Assembly (NCBI GenBank): GCA_900299125.1
Contig: OMIR01000094.1
Coordinates: forward strand, 1-38,520
DNA: 38,520 nucleotides
Source of the DNA: Nitrosopumilales archaeon
Lineage (GTDB): Archaea > Thermoproteota > Nitrososphaeria > Nitrososphaerales > Nitrosopumilaceae
Reading direction: 5' to 3'
Positions within the stretch are counted from its first letter, which is position 1, and the number at the start of each line of letters is the position of its first letter. The notes under the pieces are model-generated. The model did not search any database and was not told the origin of the DNA. It saw nothing but the letters and a program-made list of their open reading frames with translations. A program made the position numbers and the translations under genes. Below, piece by piece: positions 29,109-37,279 of the stretch.

Positions 29109-29882
29109 TTATCTTGATGCATACAGTAAACCCATATCTGGCGATGTTTCTGTTTGTGTTATTCTGAAAGTAAATCTCTGTAGTCTATCTATTAGTTGGT
29201 CTAATGATTTCCGTCTGACGTCTGCCAAATGATATTCCATACAGATCCTTTTAATTTTGGAATAATGTGAATCCGGCAAAGCATTCATTATTGAATATTC
29301 CTCTCCTTCACAATCCAGCTTCAAAAAATCACAATGCTCGATAGAATTTGAATCAAAAACACTCTGCAAAGAAACTGATTTTGTTTCTACTTTTTTTGAT
29401 CCTACTACATGCATGCTATGCCCAGACTGGTCTTCATTTAGATAGATTGTGACAATTCCGTTATCTGTAGATACTGCTGTATTCATTGCAGTAATGTTTG
29501 TAATTTTATTCAATTCTATGTTTGTTGTTAACATTTCAAAATTTTCTTTAATTGGCTCAAAACAAAAAATTTTTCCAGATCTACAAAATTGTGATGCATA
29601 CAGTGCAAACAATCCTATGTGTGCACCAACATCTATCACCGTATCATTATTTCTGATTTCAAATCCTGGGTTTCGATATTCTTCTACAAGCCATACATTA
29701 GTAAATGCCATCAAATCTGTCGAATTTGTTCTGAGCTTTATCTTGATCCCGTTTCTCATCTCTAAAATTGTATATTCTGATCTTATTTTGTGAAAATAAA
29801 GATTAACAAAGATATGCCAATTTTTTATGATCTTAATTGCTTTGAATAACACGATGATTTTTTCTACTAATCTGATGCTCAA
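29109..29882 (-). CDS. FkbM family SAM-dependent methyltransferase
   Basis: 257 aa. The FkbM-type core (PF05050) is visible from VIDVGAHIGLFALYAS (83-98) through FCFEPIKENFEML and LKLDCEGEEYSI, the LDCEGEE form being diagnostic. Family members O-methylate sugars or small metabolites; here a glycan O-methyl group is likely. The N-terminal 80 residues form a basic amphipathic region common in these proteins. TTG start with a TATA-like box about 26 bases upstream. It heads the minus-strand run FkbM-GT4-DegT and is divergent from the epimerase at 29967. Confidence 0.87.
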   Translation of the reverse strand: MSIRLVEKIIVLFKAIKIIKNWHIFVNLYFHKIRSEYTILEMRNGIKIKLRTNSTDLMAFTNVWLVEEYRNPGFEIRNNDTVIDVGAHIGLFALYASQFCRSGKIFCFEPIKENFEMLTTNIELNKITNITAMNTAVSTDNGIVTIYLNEDQSGHSMHVVGSKKVETKSVSLQSVFDSNSIEHCDFLKLDCEGEEYSIMNALPDSHYSKIKRICMEYHLADVRRKSLDQLIDRLQRFTFRITQTETSPDMGLLYASR

Positions 29883-29966: not shown

Positions 29967-30899
29967 ATGAAAATCATGATAACTGGTGGTGCAGGTTTTA
30001 TTGGAAGTCATTTATGCGATGAGTTTGCCACAAAAAATGAGGTGATAGTTGTAACAAGAAATACTACCAATCTAGATCGTATCTTACATCTGTTGAACAA
30101 AATCATTGTAGAGAAAGCAGATGTCACAAACTATGACGAGCTAGGAGGAATAATAGAAAAACATCGTCCAGATGTAATAATACATCTAGCAGGTGAAACA
30201 TCACACTCAAAATCTTTTGAAAATCCGCTTTATGATCTTGATGTTAATACAAAGTCTACATTATACATACTTGAAAAACTAAAACAACTAAACCTAAAAT
30301 GTCGATTCATTCTTGGCAGTACTTTCATAGTTATAGGAAAACCGCAAGGATTACCTGTCAATGAACAAAGCATATGCAATCCCACTACGATTTATGGTGC
30401 AAACAGACTTGCAAGTGAGGTCTATTGTAAAATATATCATAATGTGTATGACCTAGATACTATTACTTTTAGAATCACAAATTCTTTTGGCCCAAGAGAG
30501 CAATACATCCCAAGCAAAAATGCAATAAACTTCCTCGTACACAAAGCTTTCAAAAAAGAAGCAATACCAATTTTCGACGGGGGTGATTTTTTCAAAGATG
30601 TTGTATATGTATCAGATGTAGTATCTGCAATTAAAACCATAATGGAAGAAGGTAAATCTGGTGAGCTATACTGGATTTCTTCTGGAAGTAAAACATGGTT
30701 TTATGATCTTGGAAGCTGGCTTGAAGAATTGACTGGTGCAAAAGTACAATATGTCGAATCTCCACAATACACAAAAAAAACAGATGTAGGTAATTTCGTA
30801 GTAGATAACTCTAAGCTAAGATCTCTTGGTTGGAATATCCAAACATCAGTAAAGGATGGAATCAAAAAAACTTTAGAATATTTTGAAAACCTGAATTAA
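29967..30899 (+). CDS. NAD-dependent epimerase/dehydratase-like SDR with YxxxR instead of YxxxK
   Basis: 310 aa extended SDR. NAD site ITGGAGFIGS (5-14) is intact, as are HLAGETSH and the later FRITNSFGPRE. The usual SSSxVYG region reads LGSTFIVIG (116-124), with Thr/Ser kept but Tyr lost. The catalytic pair is Y143-G-A-N-R147: the lysine that lowers the tyrosine pKa is replaced by arginine. The sugar reaction is therefore uncertain; the protein may be slow, specialised or non-catalytic. Its sequence otherwise resembles GDP-mannose 4,6-dehydratase/RMD or CDP-paratose-epimerase types. Its end overlaps the convergent deacetylase by four bases. Confidence 0.78.
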   Translation: MKIMITGGAGFIGSHLCDEFATKNEVIVVTRNTTNLDRILHLLNKIIVEKADVTNYDELGGIIEKHRPDVIIHLAGETSHSKSFENPLYDLDVNTKSTLYILEKLKQLNLKCRFILGSTFIVIGKPQGLPVNEQSICNPTTIYGANRLASEVYCKIYHNVYDLDTITFRITNSFGPREQYIPSKNAINFLVHKAFKKEAIPIFDGGDFFKDVVYVSDVVSAIKTIMEEGKSGELYWISSGSKTWFYDLGSWLEELTGAKVQYVESPQYTKKTDVGNFVVDNSKLRSLGWNIQTSVKDGIKKTLEYFENLN

Positions 30900-31729
30900 T
30901 TTGTCGTGTTGATGTATTTTTCAAATGATGTGAACTTGAATTTTTTTATCAAATTATCCATTTTTGACATGGCCTTATCTAAATTATGATATGTGATAAA
31001 TCTGTCAACTAGAGGAAGAGCAACTCTTGGCATATGTTCTGGTGTTAGCTCCCATGAATGAATGTAAAATGTTGCCGGCTTGTTTTCTGATTCGTACTGC
31101 TTTACTGCATTTTCAATGGTGGTGAGGGGTAAAAATCTAAGATAAAATCCTCCTCCCGCAGGAATTTTTTTACCAAAAAATCTAGTTATCATCAAAGGAA
31201 ATTCTAACATTTTTGCATTAGGATCGTTTTGGTTTATTTTATGTGAAGAGATCTTGTATGGTTTTGTCTGTGCATCTGGAATCCCATACAATCTCGTTTC
31301 TGCAGGCACAATACTGCTATCATACAAGTAGTTATTCTCTTCTAAGACATCAAGCGCCCAATTTGTTCTGTGATTTAATGAAAATGTGGGAGCTCTGAAT
31401 CCCTTTGATCTGTTGTTTGTAATTCTTGCAAATTCTTGTACCTCTTTTCTAAAGTCTGCCCTTGTGGTATTGTCAAGTCTTTTGTGATGCATGCTGTGAA
31501 ATGCAATCCCGTGTCCATTCTCCACTATTTTGTCTAGAATATCTGGTCTTGTTTGTAAAATCTCACCTACTACAAAAAATGTAGCAAAGGTTTCATTCTT
31601 GCGGAGCCAATCTAATATTTTGTCAATTCCATTAACTATCTGTGGTTTGTTATTGTTACCTTTTAGATGTGGTTGTATGAGTTCTGGATGATACCATTCT
31701 TCAAAATCTATGCCAAGTAGATTTATCAT
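30896..31729 (-). CDS. NodB-type polysaccharide deacetylase (DUF3473/XrtA-associated subfamily)
   Basis: 277 aa carbohydrate esterase 4 fold. Motif 1 is GIDFEEW (6-12) with the metal/base Asp pair. Motif 2 is FHSMHH, the HSxxH zinc ligands. FRAPTFS is motif 3 and YDSSIVPAETRLYG is motif 4. The C-terminal FYIHSWELTPEHMPR fits the DUF3473 tail of exosortase-linked deacetylases. It would remove N- or O-acetyl from a glycan. No signal peptide is seen, so it may act on cytoplasmic lipid-linked intermediates. It is three bases after the acyltransferase gene, so both form an operon; acetyl removal and acyl addition may be coupled. Confidence 0.85.
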   Translation of the reverse strand: MINLLGIDFEEWYHPELIQPHLKGNNNKPQIVNGIDKILDWLRKNETFATFFVVGEILQTRPDILDKIVENGHGIAFHSMHHKRLDNTTRADFRKEVQEFARITNNRSKGFRAPTFSLNHRTNWALDVLEENNYLYDSSIVPAETRLYGIPDAQTKPYKISSHKINQNDPNAKMLEFPLMITRFFGKKIPAGGGFYLRFLPLTTIENAVKQYESENKPATFYIHSWELTPEHMPRVALPLVDRFITYHNLDKAMSKMDNLIKKFKFTSFEKYINTTN

Positions 31730-31732
31730 TGT

Positions 31733-32287
31733 TTACACATCAATTTTTTTTACTATTCTTGCTGGATTACCAATTACCACACAGCAATCTGGTACATCTT
31801 CAAACACTACGCTTCCTGCACTGACTAATGCATTTTTGCCAATTGTTACACCGGCAGTGATTATACAGCCTGGAAATAATACTGCACCAGTTTTGATATT
31901 TACTGGTTCAACTTTTCTTGGATATCCGTTTCTCTTTAGAAATAAATTCGTAGTTGGATTTGCATGTGCAAAAATCGATGTATTACTGCCTACTGTAACA
32001 TTATCTTCTATGGTTACAAGCTGCGGATACAATAAATCAATTAAAACATATGGAGAAATATGACAATTTTTTCCTATTTTAACACCTCTTGATCTTTGCA
32101 TTGATATTGCAAAATTTGAAAGTGGTGTTGAATATGCTAGTCCATGCAGTAACCATGTCTTGATGAACTTGCATCGTAACTTGAATTTGCCATAAGCGCC
32201 GCCATATCCATAATATTCCATAATCTCTTGCTCGTTTATGTGAAAAACATCATTGTTTACCATGATTACAGCCTCAAATCTATACAT
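31733..32287 (-). CDS. Left-handed beta-helix (hexapeptide) acyltransferase
   Basis: 184 aa. Hexapeptide repeats run from about residue 70 to the end: GVKIGKNCHISPYVLID, VTIEDNVTVGSNTSIF, VNIKTGAVLFPGCIITAGVTIGKNALV, and the closing GNPARIVKK, typical of WbbJ/serine-acetyltransferase-like enzymes. The His in FAHANP may be the catalytic base. It probably O- or N-acylates a glycan sugar, using acetyl-CoA or, possibly, an acyl-ACP made by the cassette just to the right (inference). The ATG at 32287 is used; a later in-frame Met at residue 9 is possible. Confidence 0.85.
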   Translation of the reverse strand: MYRFEAVIMVNNDVFHINEQEIMEYYGYGGAYGKFKLRCKFIKTWLLHGLAYSTPLSNFAISMQRSRGVKIGKNCHISPYVLIDLLYPQLVTIEDNVTVGSNTSIFAHANPTTNLFLKRNGYPRKVEPVNIKTGAVLFPGCIITAGVTIGKNALVSAGSVVFEDVPDCCVVIGNPARIVKKIDV

Positions 32288-32382: not shown

Positions 32383-34134
32383 ATGAAAGAAGAAAAACTA
32401 TCGTATTATGTCAACAAAGCATCAGAACTGAACAATTCTTTGTTTGATAATAAAATCCGTGTTGCTATATTGAGCAGTTTTACATTAAATGGACTCGCTG
32501 AAACAATACAAGTAAAATGTGCAGAAAAAAAAATTCAGTGCTTTACATATGTGGGCAACTACAATCAATATAATCAGGATATACTAAATCCACAAAGCGA
32601 TCTTTACAAATTCAAACCGGACTTGACATTTCTTTTTATAGATACAAGAGCATTGCTAAAAGAACTGTTTCATCACCCACATTCTATATCTGTTGGAGAA
32701 AGAAAAACTTTGGTAACTGAAAAAACAAATGAAGTTTCAATACTAGCAACAAAGTTTTCTGATACAATAAAATCAAAACTAGTTCTGGCCAATTTCTCAA
32801 TTCCAACATTTTCACCATATGGAATATCTGAGAATAAGACTGACTTTGGTTTTCATCGAATGCTCAATGAGATTAATAACAACATAGCTGACCGTTTTTC
32901 AAAATCTGATTCTGTGTATGTTTATGATTTTGACAAATTTGTAACAAAATTTGGCGAAAAAAATGTCTTTGATTATAAACAGTTTTTCTTTGGGGACATG
33001 AAGATATCCATTGATTATATCCCGTATCTGGCTTCTGAGATGATATCATATGTAATAGGATATCTTGGAATATCAAAAAAATGCATAGTACTAGATCTCG
33101 ACAATACTCTATGGGGTGGAATAGTGGGTGAAGATGGTTTTAATGGCATCAAGCTAGGACCAGAACCTCCTGGCAATGCATTTTTAGAATTCCAAAAAAC
33201 ATTACTTTCTTTTCATCAACGGGGAATAATTCTGGCAATAAATAGCAAAAATAACTATGATGATGCCATCGAGGTAATACGTGAACATCCTTACATGCAA
33301 CTAAGAGAGGACAATTTTGCTTCATTGAAGATAAATTGGAATGATAAAGTATCTAATTTAAAGGAAATTGCATCTGAAATTAATATTGGCCTTGATAGTA
33401 TTGTCTTTTTTGACGATGATCCAATAAACAGAGAGTACGTAAGAGTCAACCTTCCGCAAGTTGAAACTGTTGAGCTGCCCAAAGATCCATCCGAATTTAC
33501 AAATGTTTTGCAGCATCTGAATGAATTTAGCATATTAAAAATCACGCAGGAGGACCAGCGAAGAGGTAAAATGTATGCAGAGCAAAGGAATAGATCTGAT
33601 CTAGAAAAATCAGCACCTAGCTTGGAAGAATTTTTACAACAATTAGATGTCAAAGTATCAATAAAAAATGCTAATGATTTCACAATTCCAAGAATATCTC
33701 AGCTTACATTAAAGACAAATCAATTCAATTTGACTACAAAAAGATATCAGGAAAGTGATATCAAGAAATTTGTTCAAGATTCAAGTTATCTTGTTGGGTG
33801 TGCCCAAGTTGAAGACAAATTTGGTGACAATGGAATAACCGGGGTTTTCATAGTAGATAAAAAAAATCCAAAGGAATGGCATTTGGACACATTTTTGCTA
33901 AGTTGCAGAGTCATGGGCAGAGAAGTCGAGAAAGGTATTCTTAATTATATCATAAATAAAGCAAAAGAATCTGGAGCTCAAAAAATAAGGGCAGAATTCA
34001 TTCCCACACAAAAAAACAAACCCGTTGAAGATTTTCTCCCTAACTGTGGATTTACAAAAGAATCTGACTCGTGGGTTTATTCTGTTAACTTGCCATTTGA
34101 AATACCAAACTATATTACAGTTAGTGCTGAGTAA
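32383..34134 (+). CDS. FkbH-like HAD-superfamily protein (SGNH-like + HAD-IIIC + GNAT-like)
   Basis: 583 aa, three regions. Residues about 20-225 form an SGNH-like N-terminal domain. The HAD-IIIC domain starts at LDLDNTLWGG (237-246), with the metal-binding and nucleophile Asp pair, and VFFDDDPINRE (residues about 337-347) as the later motif. The C-terminal third (residues about 420-575) resembles the GNAT-like part of FkbH proteins (LDTFLLSCRVMGREVEKGIL, EFIPTQKNKP). Characterised FkbH proteins transfer the glyceryl group of 1,3-bisphosphoglycerate to an ACP. The ACP gene starts in its stop codon (TAATG), so this link is strong by context. It is the first gene of the cassette. Confidence 0.88.
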   Translation: MKEEKLSYYVNKASELNNSLFDNKIRVAILSSFTLNGLAETIQVKCAEKKIQCFTYVGNYNQYNQDILNPQSDLYKFKPDLTFLFIDTRALLKELFHHPHSISVGERKTLVTEKTNEVSILATKFSDTIKSKLVLANFSIPTFSPYGISENKTDFGFHRMLNEINNNIADRFSKSDSVYVYDFDKFVTKFGEKNVFDYKQFFFGDMKISIDYIPYLASEMISYVIGYLGISKKCIVLDLDNTLWGGIVGEDGFNGIKLGPEPPGNAFLEFQKTLLSFHQRGIILAINSKNNYDDAIEVIREHPYMQLREDNFASLKINWNDKVSNLKEIASEINIGLDSIVFFDDDPINREYVRVNLPQVETVELPKDPSEFTNVLQHLNEFSILKITQEDQRRGKMYAEQRNRSDLEKSAPSLEEFLQQLDVKVSIKNANDFTIPRISQLTLKTNQFNLTTKRYQESDIKKFVQDSSYLVGCAQVEDKFGDNGITGVFIVDKKNPKEWHLDTFLLSCRVMGREVEKGILNYIINKAKESGAQKIRAEFIPTQKNKPVEDFLPNCGFTKESDSWVYSVNLPFEIPNYITVSAE

Positions 34135-34373
34135 TGTCCAAAAAATTATACGAATTAATTGCAAGAGTAATGAATGTGCCAGTAGCATCAGTTACAGATA
34201 GTTCAGGACCAGAATCAATCGAAAGCTGGACATCGTTTAAGGGATATGTTTTGCTTTATGAACTAGAAAGTGAATTCAAAGTTAAGTTTACTATAGATGA
34301 AGCTATGGATGTAAAGAAAGTCTCTGACATAAAACGTCATCTCACAAATCATGGAGTTGTATTACATGACTGA
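34134..34373 (+). CDS. Acyl carrier protein
   Basis: 79 residues, acidic and helical, with the carrier fold. ESIESWTSFKGYVLLYELE aligns with the second helix of FkbH-partner ACPs, and S34 takes the place of the phosphopantetheine serine, with TSF where most ACPs have DSL. The C-terminal helix VKKVSDIKRHL is normal. Apo-ACP would be loaded by the AcpS three genes on. One-base overlap with fkbH (TAATG). ACPs are rare in archaea, which generally lack FAS II, so this protein is best seen as a dedicated carrier for a glycan acyl or glyceryl group. Confidence 0.85.
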   Translation: MSKKLYELIARVMNVPVASVTDSSGPESIESWTSFKGYVLLYELESEFKVKFTIDEAMDVKKVSDIKRHLTNHGVVLHD

Positions 34374-34794
34374 CATGCCAAATGAGTACAAATTTGAAGA
34401 TATTGAAATAGGACTTGAACACAAATTCACAGAAAAAATTACCAATCTGATCCTTGATAATTTTGCAAAGCTCTCTGGAGATCACAATCCTCTTCATATG
34501 GATGCGGATTATGCGAAAGGCACCAAATTCAAAAAACAGGTGTGCCACGGCATGCTCTTGGCGTCTTTTTTTTCCAAGCTAGTTGGCATGTATATTCCAG
34601 GAAAAAATGCACTATATTTCTCTCAGAGTCTGAATTTTCAGTCACCATGTTACATCGATGACACTGTAACAGTTAGAGGTGAAGTCATTGACAAAAGTGA
34701 TTCAACAAGAATCATCACTATGAAGACCTCAATATACAATCAACAGGGAACATGTCTGATTGATGGCATCGCTAAAGTAGTGATACGTCAATAG
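34366..34794 (+). CDS. MaoC-like hot-dog dehydratase
   Basis: 142 aa from the ATG at 34366. An ATG at 34375 (just past the ACP stop) is equally good; an in-frame ATG at 34351 overlaps the ACP gene more deeply and is not needed. The hot-dog catalytic stretch is SGDHNPLHMD, with D39 and H44 as the MaoC/R-hydratase residues, followed by the VCHGML helix. Family members hydrate enoyl-CoA or dehydrate (R)-3-hydroxyacyl thioesters. With ACP and FkbH beside it, dehydration of a hydroxyacyl-ACP is plausible. It overlaps the ACP gene by eight bases. Confidence 0.85.
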   Translation: MTDMPNEYKFEDIEIGLEHKFTEKITNLILDNFAKLSGDHNPLHMDADYAKGTKFKKQVCHGMLLASFFSKLVGMYIPGKNALYFSQSLNFQSPCYIDDTVTVRGEVIDKSDSTRIITMKTSIYNQQGTCLIDGIAKVVIRQ

Positions 34795-34800
34795 ATACAC

Positions 34801-35154
34801 ATGCTCAACAACATTTCCATAGGAATTGACATAGTGGACGTAAAAAGATTCAAACAAATTCCATTCAAATCAAAACCAGGTTTTTACAAAAAACTCTTTC
34901 ATAAATCCGAAATAAATTACTGCTTGAAATACAAAAATTCCTATGAACATTTTGCTGGTAAATTTGCGATTAAGGAGGCAGTAATAAAATCAATACCAGA
35001 CAAAATTTCTATGATTAATATTGAAACCTATCATGTAAAATCAAAACCACATGTTAAAATCAAAAACCTGAAGAAAAATTATCTATTTCAAGTATCACTC
35101 AGCCACGAAAATGATCTTGCAGTCGCAGTTGTACTATCTGAGTTAAGAGTTTAA
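34801..35154 (+). CDS. acpS: Holo-acyl-carrier-protein synthase (AcpS-type phosphopantetheinyl transferase)
   Basis: 117 aa, the length of bacterial AcpS. ISIGIDIVDVKRF (5-17) carries the magnesium-binding Asp (D10), FAGKFAIKEAVIK holds the catalytic Glu/Lys (E59 region), and VSLSHEN near residue 100 is the third conserved motif. It moves 4'-phosphopantetheine from CoA to the ACP serine. It sits six bases after the MaoC gene in a run FkbH-ACP-MaoC-AcpS, so it is almost certainly dedicated to that ACP. AcpS-type enzymes are uncommon in archaea, suggesting acquisition from bacteria. It ends three bases before the convergent GT2 stop. Confidence 0.9.
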   Translation: MLNNISIGIDIVDVKRFKQIPFKSKPGFYKKLFHKSEINYCLKYKNSYEHFAGKFAIKEAVIKSIPDKISMINIETYHVKSKPHVKIKNLKKNYLFQVSLSHENDLAVAVVLSELRV

Positions 35155-35157
35155 AAA

Positions 35158-36210
35158 TTATTTTATAATCCTGTTTTTGGCTTTTTGACTTAGCTTTTTT
35201 AATAATAAATTGAAAACATAACTACCAAATCCGCCACTGACATTTTTTGGAATAAATACCTCATCAGGAAATGACTTGATTAGCTCTGTGTCTGGCACTG
35301 TTTTCTTTGATTCTAATTCATTGTATCTTTGTTGGATATGTTTTTTGTTCTTAATTATCTCCAATTCTGCCCTTATTTTTGGGCCAACAAATCCCTTTGT
35401 TAGATAAAACAACCAGACCAAAATTTCTGCCTGTAACAAATAAGGGAACATTTTCTCGTATGTGTTTTTTGAGTAGTGTGTTAGAAGACAATATCGTCTA
35501 TTGCGTTCAAGCCAATAAAATTTCTTTGAACTCCATTTGAAATTATAGCTCTCTACGTGATATACTGCAGATGATGGAGCATAGTATGATTTAATATTGA
35601 TTTGAGCTGCCCTCCAACCCAAATCAAGGTCATCATGGTACAAAAATAAAAAAGGATCAAACAAACCAATTTTTTTTAAAACTTTTTGTGAGGTAAAAAG
35701 ACAAGTACCGGATGCATATCCTACTTGTTCTATCTTGTTTCTTTTATTAGAATCAACAATTCCTTTGTCCCTAGCAAAACCAAATCCAAAAAGATGTATC
35801 ATATTACCCGTACTCTGTAGGATATTCTCTTCATACAAAGAAATTATCTTTGGTTGGTATAGTCCATCTCCGTATTTGTTATATGCTAAAACAAGCTCTG
35901 TTATCCAGTTGTGATCTACAATGGTATCTGGATTAAGTATTACGATGAATTCCCCAGCAGCTTCTCTAATTCCAACATTATTTCCTTCACAATATCCAAG
36001 ATTTTGTTCATTCTCAATTAGTATGATTTTACTGAATTTCTCTTTGCATTTTTTATGACTCTGATCCTTTGACGCATTATCAACTACTAATACCTCGATG
36101 TTGTTGTATGATGTCTTAAAAACCGATTCTACACAATTAATCAAGAGATCTCCAGCATTATAATTTAGTATTATTATGCTCACTTTTGGATTGTTTGTTA
36201 GGTTTGTCAA
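35158..36210 (-). CDS. Glycosyltransferase family 2 (rhamnosyltransferase/WbbL-like)
   Basis: 350 aa. VSIIILNYNAGDLL (10-23), VVDNASKDQS (41-50), NLGYCEGNNVGI and VILNPDTIVDHNW (NPD as metal-binding motif) are the GT-A signature of the WbbL/RfbF-type group. LFLYHDDLDLGWRA is its typical catalytic block. This group adds rhamnose or related deoxysugars to surface glycans, in keeping with the RmlA/RmlB genes directly upstream. A C-terminal hydrophobic LLQAEILVWLFYLTKG suggests membrane contact. TTG start, seven bases after the RmlA stop. Operon RmlB-RmlA-GT2. Confidence 0.87.
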   Translation of the reverse strand: MTNLTNNPKVSIIILNYNAGDLLINCVESVFKTSYNNIEVLVVDNASKDQSHKKCKEKFSKIILIENEQNLGYCEGNNVGIREAAGEFIVILNPDTIVDHNWITELVLAYNKYGDGLYQPKIISLYEENILQSTGNMIHLFGFGFARDKGIVDSNKRNKIEQVGYASGTCLFTSQKVLKKIGLFDPFLFLYHDDLDLGWRAAQINIKSYYAPSSAVYHVESYNFKWSSKKFYWLERNRRYCLLTHYSKNTYEKMFPYLLQAEILVWLFYLTKGFVGPKIRAELEIIKNKKHIQQRYNELESKKTVPDTELIKSFPDEVFIPKNVSGGFGSYVFNLLLKKLSQKAKNRIIK

Positions 36211-36217
36211 TTTATGA

Positions 36218-37279
36218 TTAAAGAGAAATCTTTGTTCCTTCCCCTAACAAGAATATCTTGCTTAAAGTATCCGATTTTTTAATTTCGCAATTAAATGCAA
36301 TTATGCTATCCTTAATTGTAAAGTCTCCATTAATATCACATCCAGACATAATTATGGAATTCTCAATGTTGCATCCCGATATCTTCGAATCATATCCTAT
36401 GCTTATGTTTGGACCAATAGTTGAATTGGGACCGATTTTACAATTCTGACCTATTATTACAGGGCCAATTATTTTACTGCCGTTTTTAATAACAGTTCCA
36501 GCTCCGACCATGATATTTCCAGAAATAGTAACGTTTTCTTCTTTTGTACCATCAAAGTATGGTTTCATGTCGTTCAAGATCACGTGATTTGCATGTATGA
36601 TATCATGAGGAGTGCCAGTATCTTTCCAATAGTCAGTTACTGTGTTGTAAACAATCTTGTGTCCTTCTTCTAATAGCATCTGTAAGGCATCAGTTATCTC
36701 ATATTCATTTCTCCAAGATGGCTTTAGTCTGTCTATTATATCGAATATTGTATCTGTTAGAAGATAGATTCCAGTTACTGCAAGATTAGTGGGAGGGTTC
36801 TTGGGTTTTTCCATTATTTTTTTAATCACACCGTCTTTCACATCGGCAATTCCGAATTGTGTAGGGTTATCTACCTCACATAATAAAATTGAAGCGCTGG
36901 CGTTTGAATCATTAAATTTTTTTACATAATCTGCAATGCTCTTCTTAAGTATGTTGTCGCCAAGAAACACTACAACTTTTTCACCATTTACAAATTCTTT
37001 ACATAATCTGATTGCATGTGCAATTCCTCGTGGGGAATCTTGGAAAACATAACTGATCTTAACGCCGAATTTCTCTCCATTACCGTAGTATTCTTGAACT
37101 TTGTTTGAACCTGTACCACCAATAATTATTGCGATATCTTTTATCCCTGCATCTCTTAATGATTCTAAACAATACTGTGACATTGGTTTGTTTGCAATGG
37201 GAAGTAACTGTTTGGGACCTGTATGGGTAAGTGGTCTTAATCTCGTTCCATGGCCACCGTGCAAAATTATTCCTTTCAA
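36218..37279 (-). CDS. rmlA: Glucose-1-phosphate thymidylyltransferase, long form
   Basis: Makes dTDP-glucose from dTTP and glucose-1-phosphate. The nucleotidyltransferase signature GGHGTRLRPLTHTGPKQLLP (residues 8-27) is present, as are FLGDNIL for the metal Asp, MEKPKNPPTN, and TDYWKDTGTP. A C-terminal left-handed beta-helix of about 100 residues (ISGNIMVGAGTVIKNGSKIIGPVIIG...) makes this the archaeal/StrD-like long form of 353 aa. The product feeds RmlB, 25 bases upstream in the operon. TTG start. A different base preference cannot be ruled out; GalU at 13702 already covers UDP-glucose. Confidence 0.9.
   Translation of the reverse strand: MKGIILHGGHGTRLRPLTHTGPKQLLPIANKPMSQYCLESLRDAGIKDIAIIIGGTGSNKVQEYYGNGEKFGVKISYVFQDSPRGIAHAIRLCKEFVNGEKVVVFLGDNILKKSIADYVKKFNDSNASASILLCEVDNPTQFGIADVKDGVIKKIMEKPKNPPTNLAVTGIYLLTDTIFDIIDRLKPSWRNEYEITDALQMLLEEGHKIVYNTVTDYWKDTGTPHDIIHANHVILNDMKPYFDGTKEENVTISGNIMVGAGTVIKNGSKIIGPVIIGQNCKIGPNSTIGPNISIGYDSKISGCNIENSIIMSGCDINGDFTIKDSIIAFNCEIKKSDTLSKIFLLGEGTKISL

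Follow-up and report, generated by a model that had tools for sequence, protein, structure and literature searches.

Introduction

Most archaea are considered to lack acyl carrier proteins (ACPs) and the holo-ACP synthase AcpS (PMC3533463). Here we describe a cassette encoding both in a Nitrosopumilales archaeon of the family Nitrosopumilaceae. The stretch analysed, called the window below, is the whole of contig OMIR01000094.1 (C94; 38,520 nucleotides), and the genes in question, on its plus strand, encode an FkbH-type glyceryl transferase/phosphatase, an ACP, a MaoC-like hydratase and AcpS.

Several described systems resemble this cassette in part. FkbH enzymes load glyceryl groups in bacterial natural-product pathways, as described in the accessible parts of PMC7489565 and PMC8949500, and in methoxymalonyl-ACP and tetronate systems an FkbH-like protein with 1,3-bisphosphoglycerate as donor is paired with a stand-alone ACP (tetromadurin Mad7/Mad8 and Mad14/Mad12; PMC7489565, same part). 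The archaeal block has such a pair, probably with the same donor, but lacks a polyketide synthase (PKS), FabH-like ligase, dehydrogenase pair and O-methyltransferase, and has AcpS, MaoC, a hexapeptide acyltransferase (AT) and a polysaccharide deacetylase (PDA); of the five parts of a methoxymalonyl-ACP cassette it holds FkbH and ACP only, although the sugar locus does contain an FkbM-type methyltransferase at a distance of 2.5 kb. Going by a title cited in PMC4847154, GmACP3 of Geobacter metallireducens is a specialised ACP that may take part in lipopolysaccharide synthesis. Exopolysaccharide loci of the XrtA (exosortase A) type offer another likeness, as the PDA is nearest to TIGR03006 and the ligases of a sister cassette match TIGR03098, both below cut-off. 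In the dlt operon, D-alanylation is carried out by the ligase DltA, the carrier DltC, the MBOAT protein DltB, and DltD. It shares with our cassette the use of a small carrier protein to hold an acyl group for an envelope polymer, but the window has no MBOAT or ligase, its donor enzyme being FkbH, and of the dlt parts only the carrier is present; partial sets occur in four other loci (L056, L069, L094 and L095). Finally, bacterial FkbH-ACP loci with MaoC (often accompanied by or fused to a short-chain dehydrogenase/reductase, SDR) or with a VOC protein contain the same kinds of loader, carrier and tailoring gene; they differ in gene order, in their MaoC-SDR fusions and in having an MBOAT in place of the hexapeptide AT, and no function for them was found in the open-access literature searched.

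We find that the archaeal genes form a conserved block, and that this block is probably a dedicated carrier-protein cassette by which a C3 acyl group, made on the carrier, is transferred to a surface-glycan sugar. The reading builds on the identities of the genes, their conservation, their co-occurrence and the pattern in which parts are swapped, each documented below.

A conserved block built around FkbH, ACP and AcpS

The genes of the block and their landmarks are as follows (window positions):

30896..31729, minus strand: polysaccharide deacetylase, PDA (Polysacc_deac_1 + DUF3473)
31733..32287, minus strand: hexapeptide acyltransferase (left-handed beta-helix), AT; probably the transferase acting on the acceptor
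32383..34134, plus strand: FkbH-type glyceryl transferase/phosphatase (TIGR01686, FkbH_N, motifs)
34132..34136, plus strand: TAATG stop/start overlap of FkbH and ACP (sequence)
34134..34373, plus strand: ACP, 79 amino acids (profile, AlphaFold model, invariant residues)
34233..34235, plus strand: codon for ACP Ser34, predicted phosphopantetheine site (invariant in 31/31)
34366..34794, plus strand: MaoC / (R)-specific enoyl-CoA hydratase-like protein, D39 and H44 in SGDHNPLH (PF01575)
34801..35154, plus strand: holo-ACP synthase AcpS (PF01648; D10, E59, K63)
35158..36210, minus strand: GT2 glycosyltransferase, closing the conserved block (26/38 archaeal FkbH loci)

The four plus-strand open reading frames (ORFs) and their tight junctions are just as the earlier note had read them: FkbH stop and ACP start share the TAATG, MaoC, with its ATG taken at 34366, shares 8 bases (34366-34373) with the end of ACP (a longer ORF would start at 34351), and the AcpS ATG lies 6 bases past the MaoC stop. 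These overlaps are conserved: measured from the longest start, FkbH and ACP overlap by 1 base in 19/35 archaeal loci, and ACP and MaoC by 8 bases in 17/23 MaoC loci.

The conserved unit extends beyond these four genes to the divergent AT and PDA. With few exceptions, PDA and AT share a strand in the relatives' block; FkbH, ACP, either MaoC or VOC, and AcpS come next on the opposite one, and GT2, often followed by RmlA, is again on the first. Among 38 archaeal FkbH loci (L004 and L035-L071), an ACP is present in 36, AcpS in 34, AT in 35, PDA in 28 and GT2 in 26, the gaps including truncated contigs and two decayed cassettes. Because the order recurs across dozens of genomes, the four-gene arrangement is not due to chance. 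What had been noted as a four-gene cassette stands in its FkbH, ACP and AcpS, with MaoC being one of two alternatives (MaoC or VOC) for its slot; the core is FkbH, ACP, AcpS and AT, with PDA as a frequent addition.

A sample of 398 genomes of the phylum includes 17 with FkbH above cut-off, and a set of 250 from the family includes 33 (35 at E 1e-20). Profiles found AcpS in 45 of these 250 genomes (E 1e-5), ACP in 45 (1e-3) and AT in 44 (1e-30); the 35 FkbH genomes include 35 with AcpS, 34 with ACP and 33 with AT. AcpS and ACP occur together in 43/45 genomes and AcpS and AT in 41/45, and Fisher's test gave p ≤3e-29 for every pair, Fisher and hypergeometric values here ignoring relatedness. Since every FkbH genome has AcpS, and AcpS and ACP agree so closely, both appear to be kept for the cassette's job. 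ACPs were called by profile-guided ORF calling, and some are overlapped by antisense ORFs (L066); the ACP of L078 comes from the profile search alone, outside these calls. The ratio of nonsynonymous to synonymous rates (dN/dS) against L043 is 0.03-0.11 for AT, FkbH, ACP, MaoC, AcpS and GT2, and with L037 as the comparison four of the six genes give 0.06-0.22, the ratio being undefined for ACP and MaoC; dS is at or near saturation in both comparisons.

The window belongs to a metagenome bin of 1.557 Mb in 109 contigs (99.5% completeness), and bacterial contamination was weighed as an explanation. The bin has 5.74% contamination and extra partial copies of the cassette, but the same block is carried by two single-contig genomes of the same genus (G003 and G287, with FkbH 80% and 69% identical), and the window FkbH falls within a 34-row, all-archaeal group with SH-aLRT support of 100. 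We consider contamination barely credible and dropped it on account of the single-contig genomes. Within the bin, AcpS is found in the window cassette, in a second cassette version on C41 and in a contig-end piece on C56. The C41 version has VOC in the MaoC slot, and that VOC gene (L002:2793-2996 / L004:10687-10890) has an in-frame TAG. Additional cassette pieces lie on C60, C69, C11 and C56, which points to a mixture of strains in the bin. Candidatus Nitrosotenuis chungbukensis MY2 also carries the cassette (L098). In the two decayed cassettes (L050 in G239 and L051 in G386) FkbH is broken, suggesting that the FkbH cassette was lost in some lineages.

Family assignments and key residues

FkbH matches TIGR01686 at 328 bits (cut-off 147) and FkbH_N at 76 (27). 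Its motifs, namely the DLDNT region with D238/D240, SKNN, the DD pair D344/D345, TNQFN and SCRVMGRxxE with C508, align with those of six bacterial FkbH proteins (the last as SCRVxGRxxE), and C508 is the sole all-Cys column across the 36 archaeal and six bacterial sequences aligned. A catalytic Cys directly before the SKN motif was considered and rejected, as the archaeal members carry Asn there; C508 is the better candidate.

The window ACP has no Pfam match and misses the gathering score of PP-binding, whose cut-off of 20.8 is passed by the ACPs of relatives (L041, 23.0; C41 copy, 23.5). On its own it finds weak NCBIfam ACP models (best E 0.007) and the solved structure 2lml (E 0.004). A profile of the archaeal ACPs matches solved ACPs, the closest being 2lml (E 9e-11), which we take to be GmACP3, a bacterial protein. 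The AlphaFold model (pLDDT 91) matches ACP structures at a TM of about 0.8 and is a predicted helical bundle in which Ser34 opens helix 34-48; all 31 archaeal sequences aligned keep Trp32 and Ser34. Profile, model and invariant residues together settle the identity of this protein, for which Pfam by itself is insufficient.

MaoC scores 74 bits against PF01575 (cut-off 27), its SGDHNPLH aligns with SEDFNPLH of 1iq6, and D39 and H44 are invariant in 19 sequences. AcpS scores 53 against PF01648 (25) and 61 against TIGR00556 (45), and falls short of the equivalog cut-off of TIGR00516 (49 vs 60 bits); its D10, E59 and K63 are invariant in 26 sequences. AcpS, ACP and FkbH thus keep the residues to be expected of them.

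The neighbouring acyltransferase travels with the carrier

The AlphaFold model of the AT (pLDDT 92) has acetyltransferases as its best solved matches (TM 0.56-0.68), including VCA0836 and galactoside/maltose O-acetyltransferases; a lower-ranked match is AntD, a sugar N-acyltransferase solved with 3-hydroxybutyryl-CoA. The adjacent PDA scores 207 bits against the XrtA-type model TIGR03006, under its cut-off of 276, and PDA-AT adjacency is found in 28/38 archaeal FkbH loci.

The AT could be an ordinary acetyl-CoA-dependent sugar acetyltransferase, with the ACP-bound group going to a lipid or small molecule. Its closest solved relatives use acetyl-CoA, and AT and PDA lie on the strand opposite the cassette. 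However, the AT is present in 41/45 AcpS-bearing genomes of the family vs 3/205 AcpS-free ones, and it also sits in cassettes whose loader is a ligase. We therefore rate this explanation as rather improbable. Synteny and co-occurrence thus favour the earlier suggestion that the neighbouring hexapeptide enzyme is the likely transferase. The other transferase then proposed, the GNAT-like part of FkbH, is less likely, because the AT is also found beside ACP and AcpS in loci that lack FkbH.

A sister cassette has a ligase in place of FkbH

Ten AcpS genomes of the family have no FkbH match (L078-L087). One (G563) has a broken FkbH cassette across two contigs and another (G500) a contig-end piece; in the other eight, ACP and AcpS are divergent. 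Where the contig continues, in seven loci, a protein of 475-487 amino acids comes after the ACP; the two of these scanned with Pfam are AMP-binding ligases, and the three scanned with NCBIfam agree. The AT comes directly after this protein in 5/7 of these loci and is followed by PDA in two. In this sister cassette FkbH is replaced by an AMP-ligase and ACP and AcpS stay together. The strongest argument for the AT using acyl-ACP is its tendency to remain beside ACP and AcpS even with a different loader. Two sister-cassette loci also contain a LuxE-family gene (L082) or a LuxC-family gene (L081).

A family scan found DltB-like MBOATs beside ACPs in ammonia-oxidising archaea at L056:9282-11694 and L094:8966-10441, and a home-made profile built partly from these two found others at L069:4382-6788 and L095:5010-8732. 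L095 also encodes a DltD-family protein (24.8 vs 22.7 bits), and the partner protein of the L056 MBOAT has no Pfam match. These four loci may carry out Dlt-like transfer of acyl groups from carrier to membrane.

MaoC and VOC alternate in one slot

MaoC lies near 24 of the 38 archaeal FkbH loci and VOC near 13; none has both, and one truncated locus has neither. The variable gene is mostly between ACP and AcpS, with VOC beyond the AT in three f14 loci. The VOC proteins are nearest to methylmalonyl-CoA epimerase, both by TIGR03081 (70 bits for L041, under the cut-off of 115) and by solved relatives; the bin encodes a separate methylmalonyl-CoA epimerase at 134 bits, above cut-off. We also scanned a species-genome collection, where the best 80 of 580 relatives (80 named loci) had ACP near 65, MaoC near 27, VOC near 17 and MaoC with VOC near none, a zero overlap with a chance of 3e-4 if loci were independent, which related loci are not.

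An FkbH tree (115 rows, quick LG+G4, no bootstrap, odd letter make-up in 71/115 rows) was used for large groups and for the minimum number of swaps alone, and gave at least 9 changes between MaoC and VOC. Seven of the 80 named loci, from the same genomes as unnamed loci, were dropped from the tree and from the SDR counts and kept in the MaoC/VOC counts. In the resulting 111 loci, which draw on the best 80 of 580 relatives minus these seven, MaoC has a FabG-type SDR nearby or fused to it in 19/47, VOC has one nearby in 0/28, and loci with neither gene have one in 1/36; the five fused proteins scanned are MaoC + SDR. This distribution suggests that MaoC feeds the SDR, and that glyceryl would become pyruvyl and then lactyl on the carrier.

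The swaps could also mean that glyceryl-ACP is made and that MaoC and VOC act by alpha-proton chemistry only, for example as epimerases, with D- or L-glyceryl transferred. Both folds are able to handle the alpha proton of a thioester, and the mutual exclusion and repeated exchange of the two genes look as if they did comparable jobs. However, MaoC keeps the Asp/His pair of hydratases, and MaoC alone is linked to FabG-type SDRs, which an epimerase does not need. We regard this explanation as unlikely, though more plausible than an acetyl-CoA-dependent AT.

The cassette lies in a probable glycan locus

Two further genes of the window belong to its surroundings:

29109..29882, minus strand: FkbM-type methyltransferase, close by in a number of relatives
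36218..37279, minus strand: RmlA-type nucleotidyltransferase, glycan context (TIGR01208, 404 bits; cut-off 320)

A Pfam scan of 20 window proteins assigned a known family to all except two and the ACP reading frame. The sugar-nucleotide enzymes, glycosyltransferases, aminotransferase, flippase-like protein and methyltransferases among them support the reading of the window as a glycan locus. The bin also encodes phosphoglycerate kinase (PGK).

We also weighed whether the cassette belongs to the synthesis of fatty acids, polyketides or methoxymalonyl/tetronate. Chain building makes use of MaoC and FabG-like SDRs. Bacterial FkbH-ACP pairs serve methoxymalonyl/tetronate pathways (PMC7489565). However, of the type II fatty acid synthesis (FAS) proteins sought in the bin, neither ketosynthase (PF00109) nor FabD (TIGR00128) gave a match at E 0.001, PF00109 having matched in 14/14 known genomes as a control. 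The cassette is therefore hardly one for fatty acid synthesis. It has no dehydrogenase pair or O-methyltransferase, and its context in the window is glycan. We thus dropped the fatty-acid and polyketide explanation, for which the missing matches leave very little room. The original proposal of a dedicated carrier-protein pathway in a glycan locus is supported, and so is its reading that no ketosynthase is present, as the bin gave no match to one.

Related cassettes in bacteria and other archaea

The earlier note knew of no archaeal system of this form, and a form peculiar to archaea is not borne out, as FkbH-ACP with MaoC occurs in many bacteria; 61 of the best 80 of 580 relatives are bacterial by name. 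Nor is the four-gene set archaeal only: AcpS-FkbH-ACP-MaoC, followed by an MBOAT, is found in metagenome-assembled genomes (MAGs) of the candidate phyla Doudnabacteria (L159) and Sungiibacteriota (L165), and a Parcubacteria locus (L149) has AcpS, FkbH, MaoC, FabG-type SDR and MBOAT. Eight further archaeal loci, seven from Asgard archaea and one from Bathyarchaeum (L110-L114, L116, L118 and L168), have AcpS-FkbH-ACP with the AT on the opposite strand, and five of them have VOC. In the FkbH tree, the sequences of the family and of two Nitrososphaerales MAGs make up the 34-row group mentioned above, L047 lies outside it, and the f14, Bathyarchaeum and Asgard sequences form another group of 11 rows. 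The cassette is thus a variant of a broader type found in both bacteria and archaea. On the Rhodobacteraceae plasmid pSC52_6 the order is ACP-FkbH-MBOAT-hypothetical-VOC-acyltransferase, with sulfate-activation and sulfotransferase genes nearby. A Nealsonbacteria MAG contig (L107) has an FkbH 50% identical to the archaeal query, adjoining a B12-binding radical SAM gene, which is either a transfer or a misbinning.

Discussion

We propose the following pathway for the block, in which the first two steps are predicted from the gene families and the later ones are conjecture. AcpS would move phosphopantetheine from CoA to Ser34 of the ACP, and FkbH would take glycerate from 1,3-bisphosphoglycerate, remove the phosphate and load D-glyceryl on the ACP thiol. 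In the reaction we prefer, MaoC would then dehydrate the ACP-bound unit across C2-C3 to give enolpyruvyl/pyruvyl-ACP. Where a FabG-type SDR stands beside MaoC, reduction to lactyl-ACP may follow, and where a VOC epimerase takes the place of MaoC, C2 of the glyceryl group may be inverted. Finally, the divergent AT would move the acyl group, which may be glyceryl, pyruvyl, lactyl or another, to a sugar through an N or O linkage, the acceptor being probably an amine freed by PDA.

Several observations weigh against this pathway. Longer 3-hydroxyacyl chains are the more familiar substrates of MaoC enzymes, and the window MaoC has no adjacent FabG-type SDR, like 28/47 MaoC loci. The FkbH residue preceding the SKN motif (residue 287, window 33241-33243) is Asn in 36/36 archaeal sequences and Cys, Val or Ala in the six bacterial ones, so an altered specificity is possible. 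The AT, whose closest solved relatives are acetyl-CoA and not acyl-ACP enzymes, is missing from 3/38 archaeal FkbH loci and from four AcpS genomes, and PDA is undetected in 10/38 loci by a single-sequence profile, a laxer search finding it in three of these (L038, L040 and L045). No biochemistry for any cassette member was found in the open-access literature searched.

More tentatively, the cassette may exemplify a modular, FAS-free glycan acylation in ammonia-oxidising archaea. Its loaders could be FkbH or an AMP-ligase, and its tailoring enzymes MaoC, MaoC with a FabG-type SDR, or a VOC epimerase, the window MaoC turning glyceryl-ACP into pyruvyl-ACP. Transfer would perhaps fall to the hexapeptide AT with the deacetylase or to DltB/DltD-like membrane enzymes.

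We found no description of such a cassette in the open-access literature, subscription papers being largely outside this search, nor in open-access work on ammonia-oxidising archaea and ACP, including the accessible part of PMC6138646. As far as that literature goes, the cassette is undescribed for archaea.

Within this one family, ACP and AcpS are shared by a distinct set of genomes in association with surface-glycan genes, and this association assigns a concrete task to an archaeal ACP. The swaps between MaoC and VOC and between FkbH and ligase offer a route to the chemistry of the bacterial FkbH loci as well. If the proposed reactions are true, surface sugars would be supplied by a novel conversion of 1,3-bisphosphoglycerate into pyruvate, and with the SDR into lactate, on the carrier. 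For these abundant nitrifiers, the cassette is a marker for strain-level variation of the envelope.

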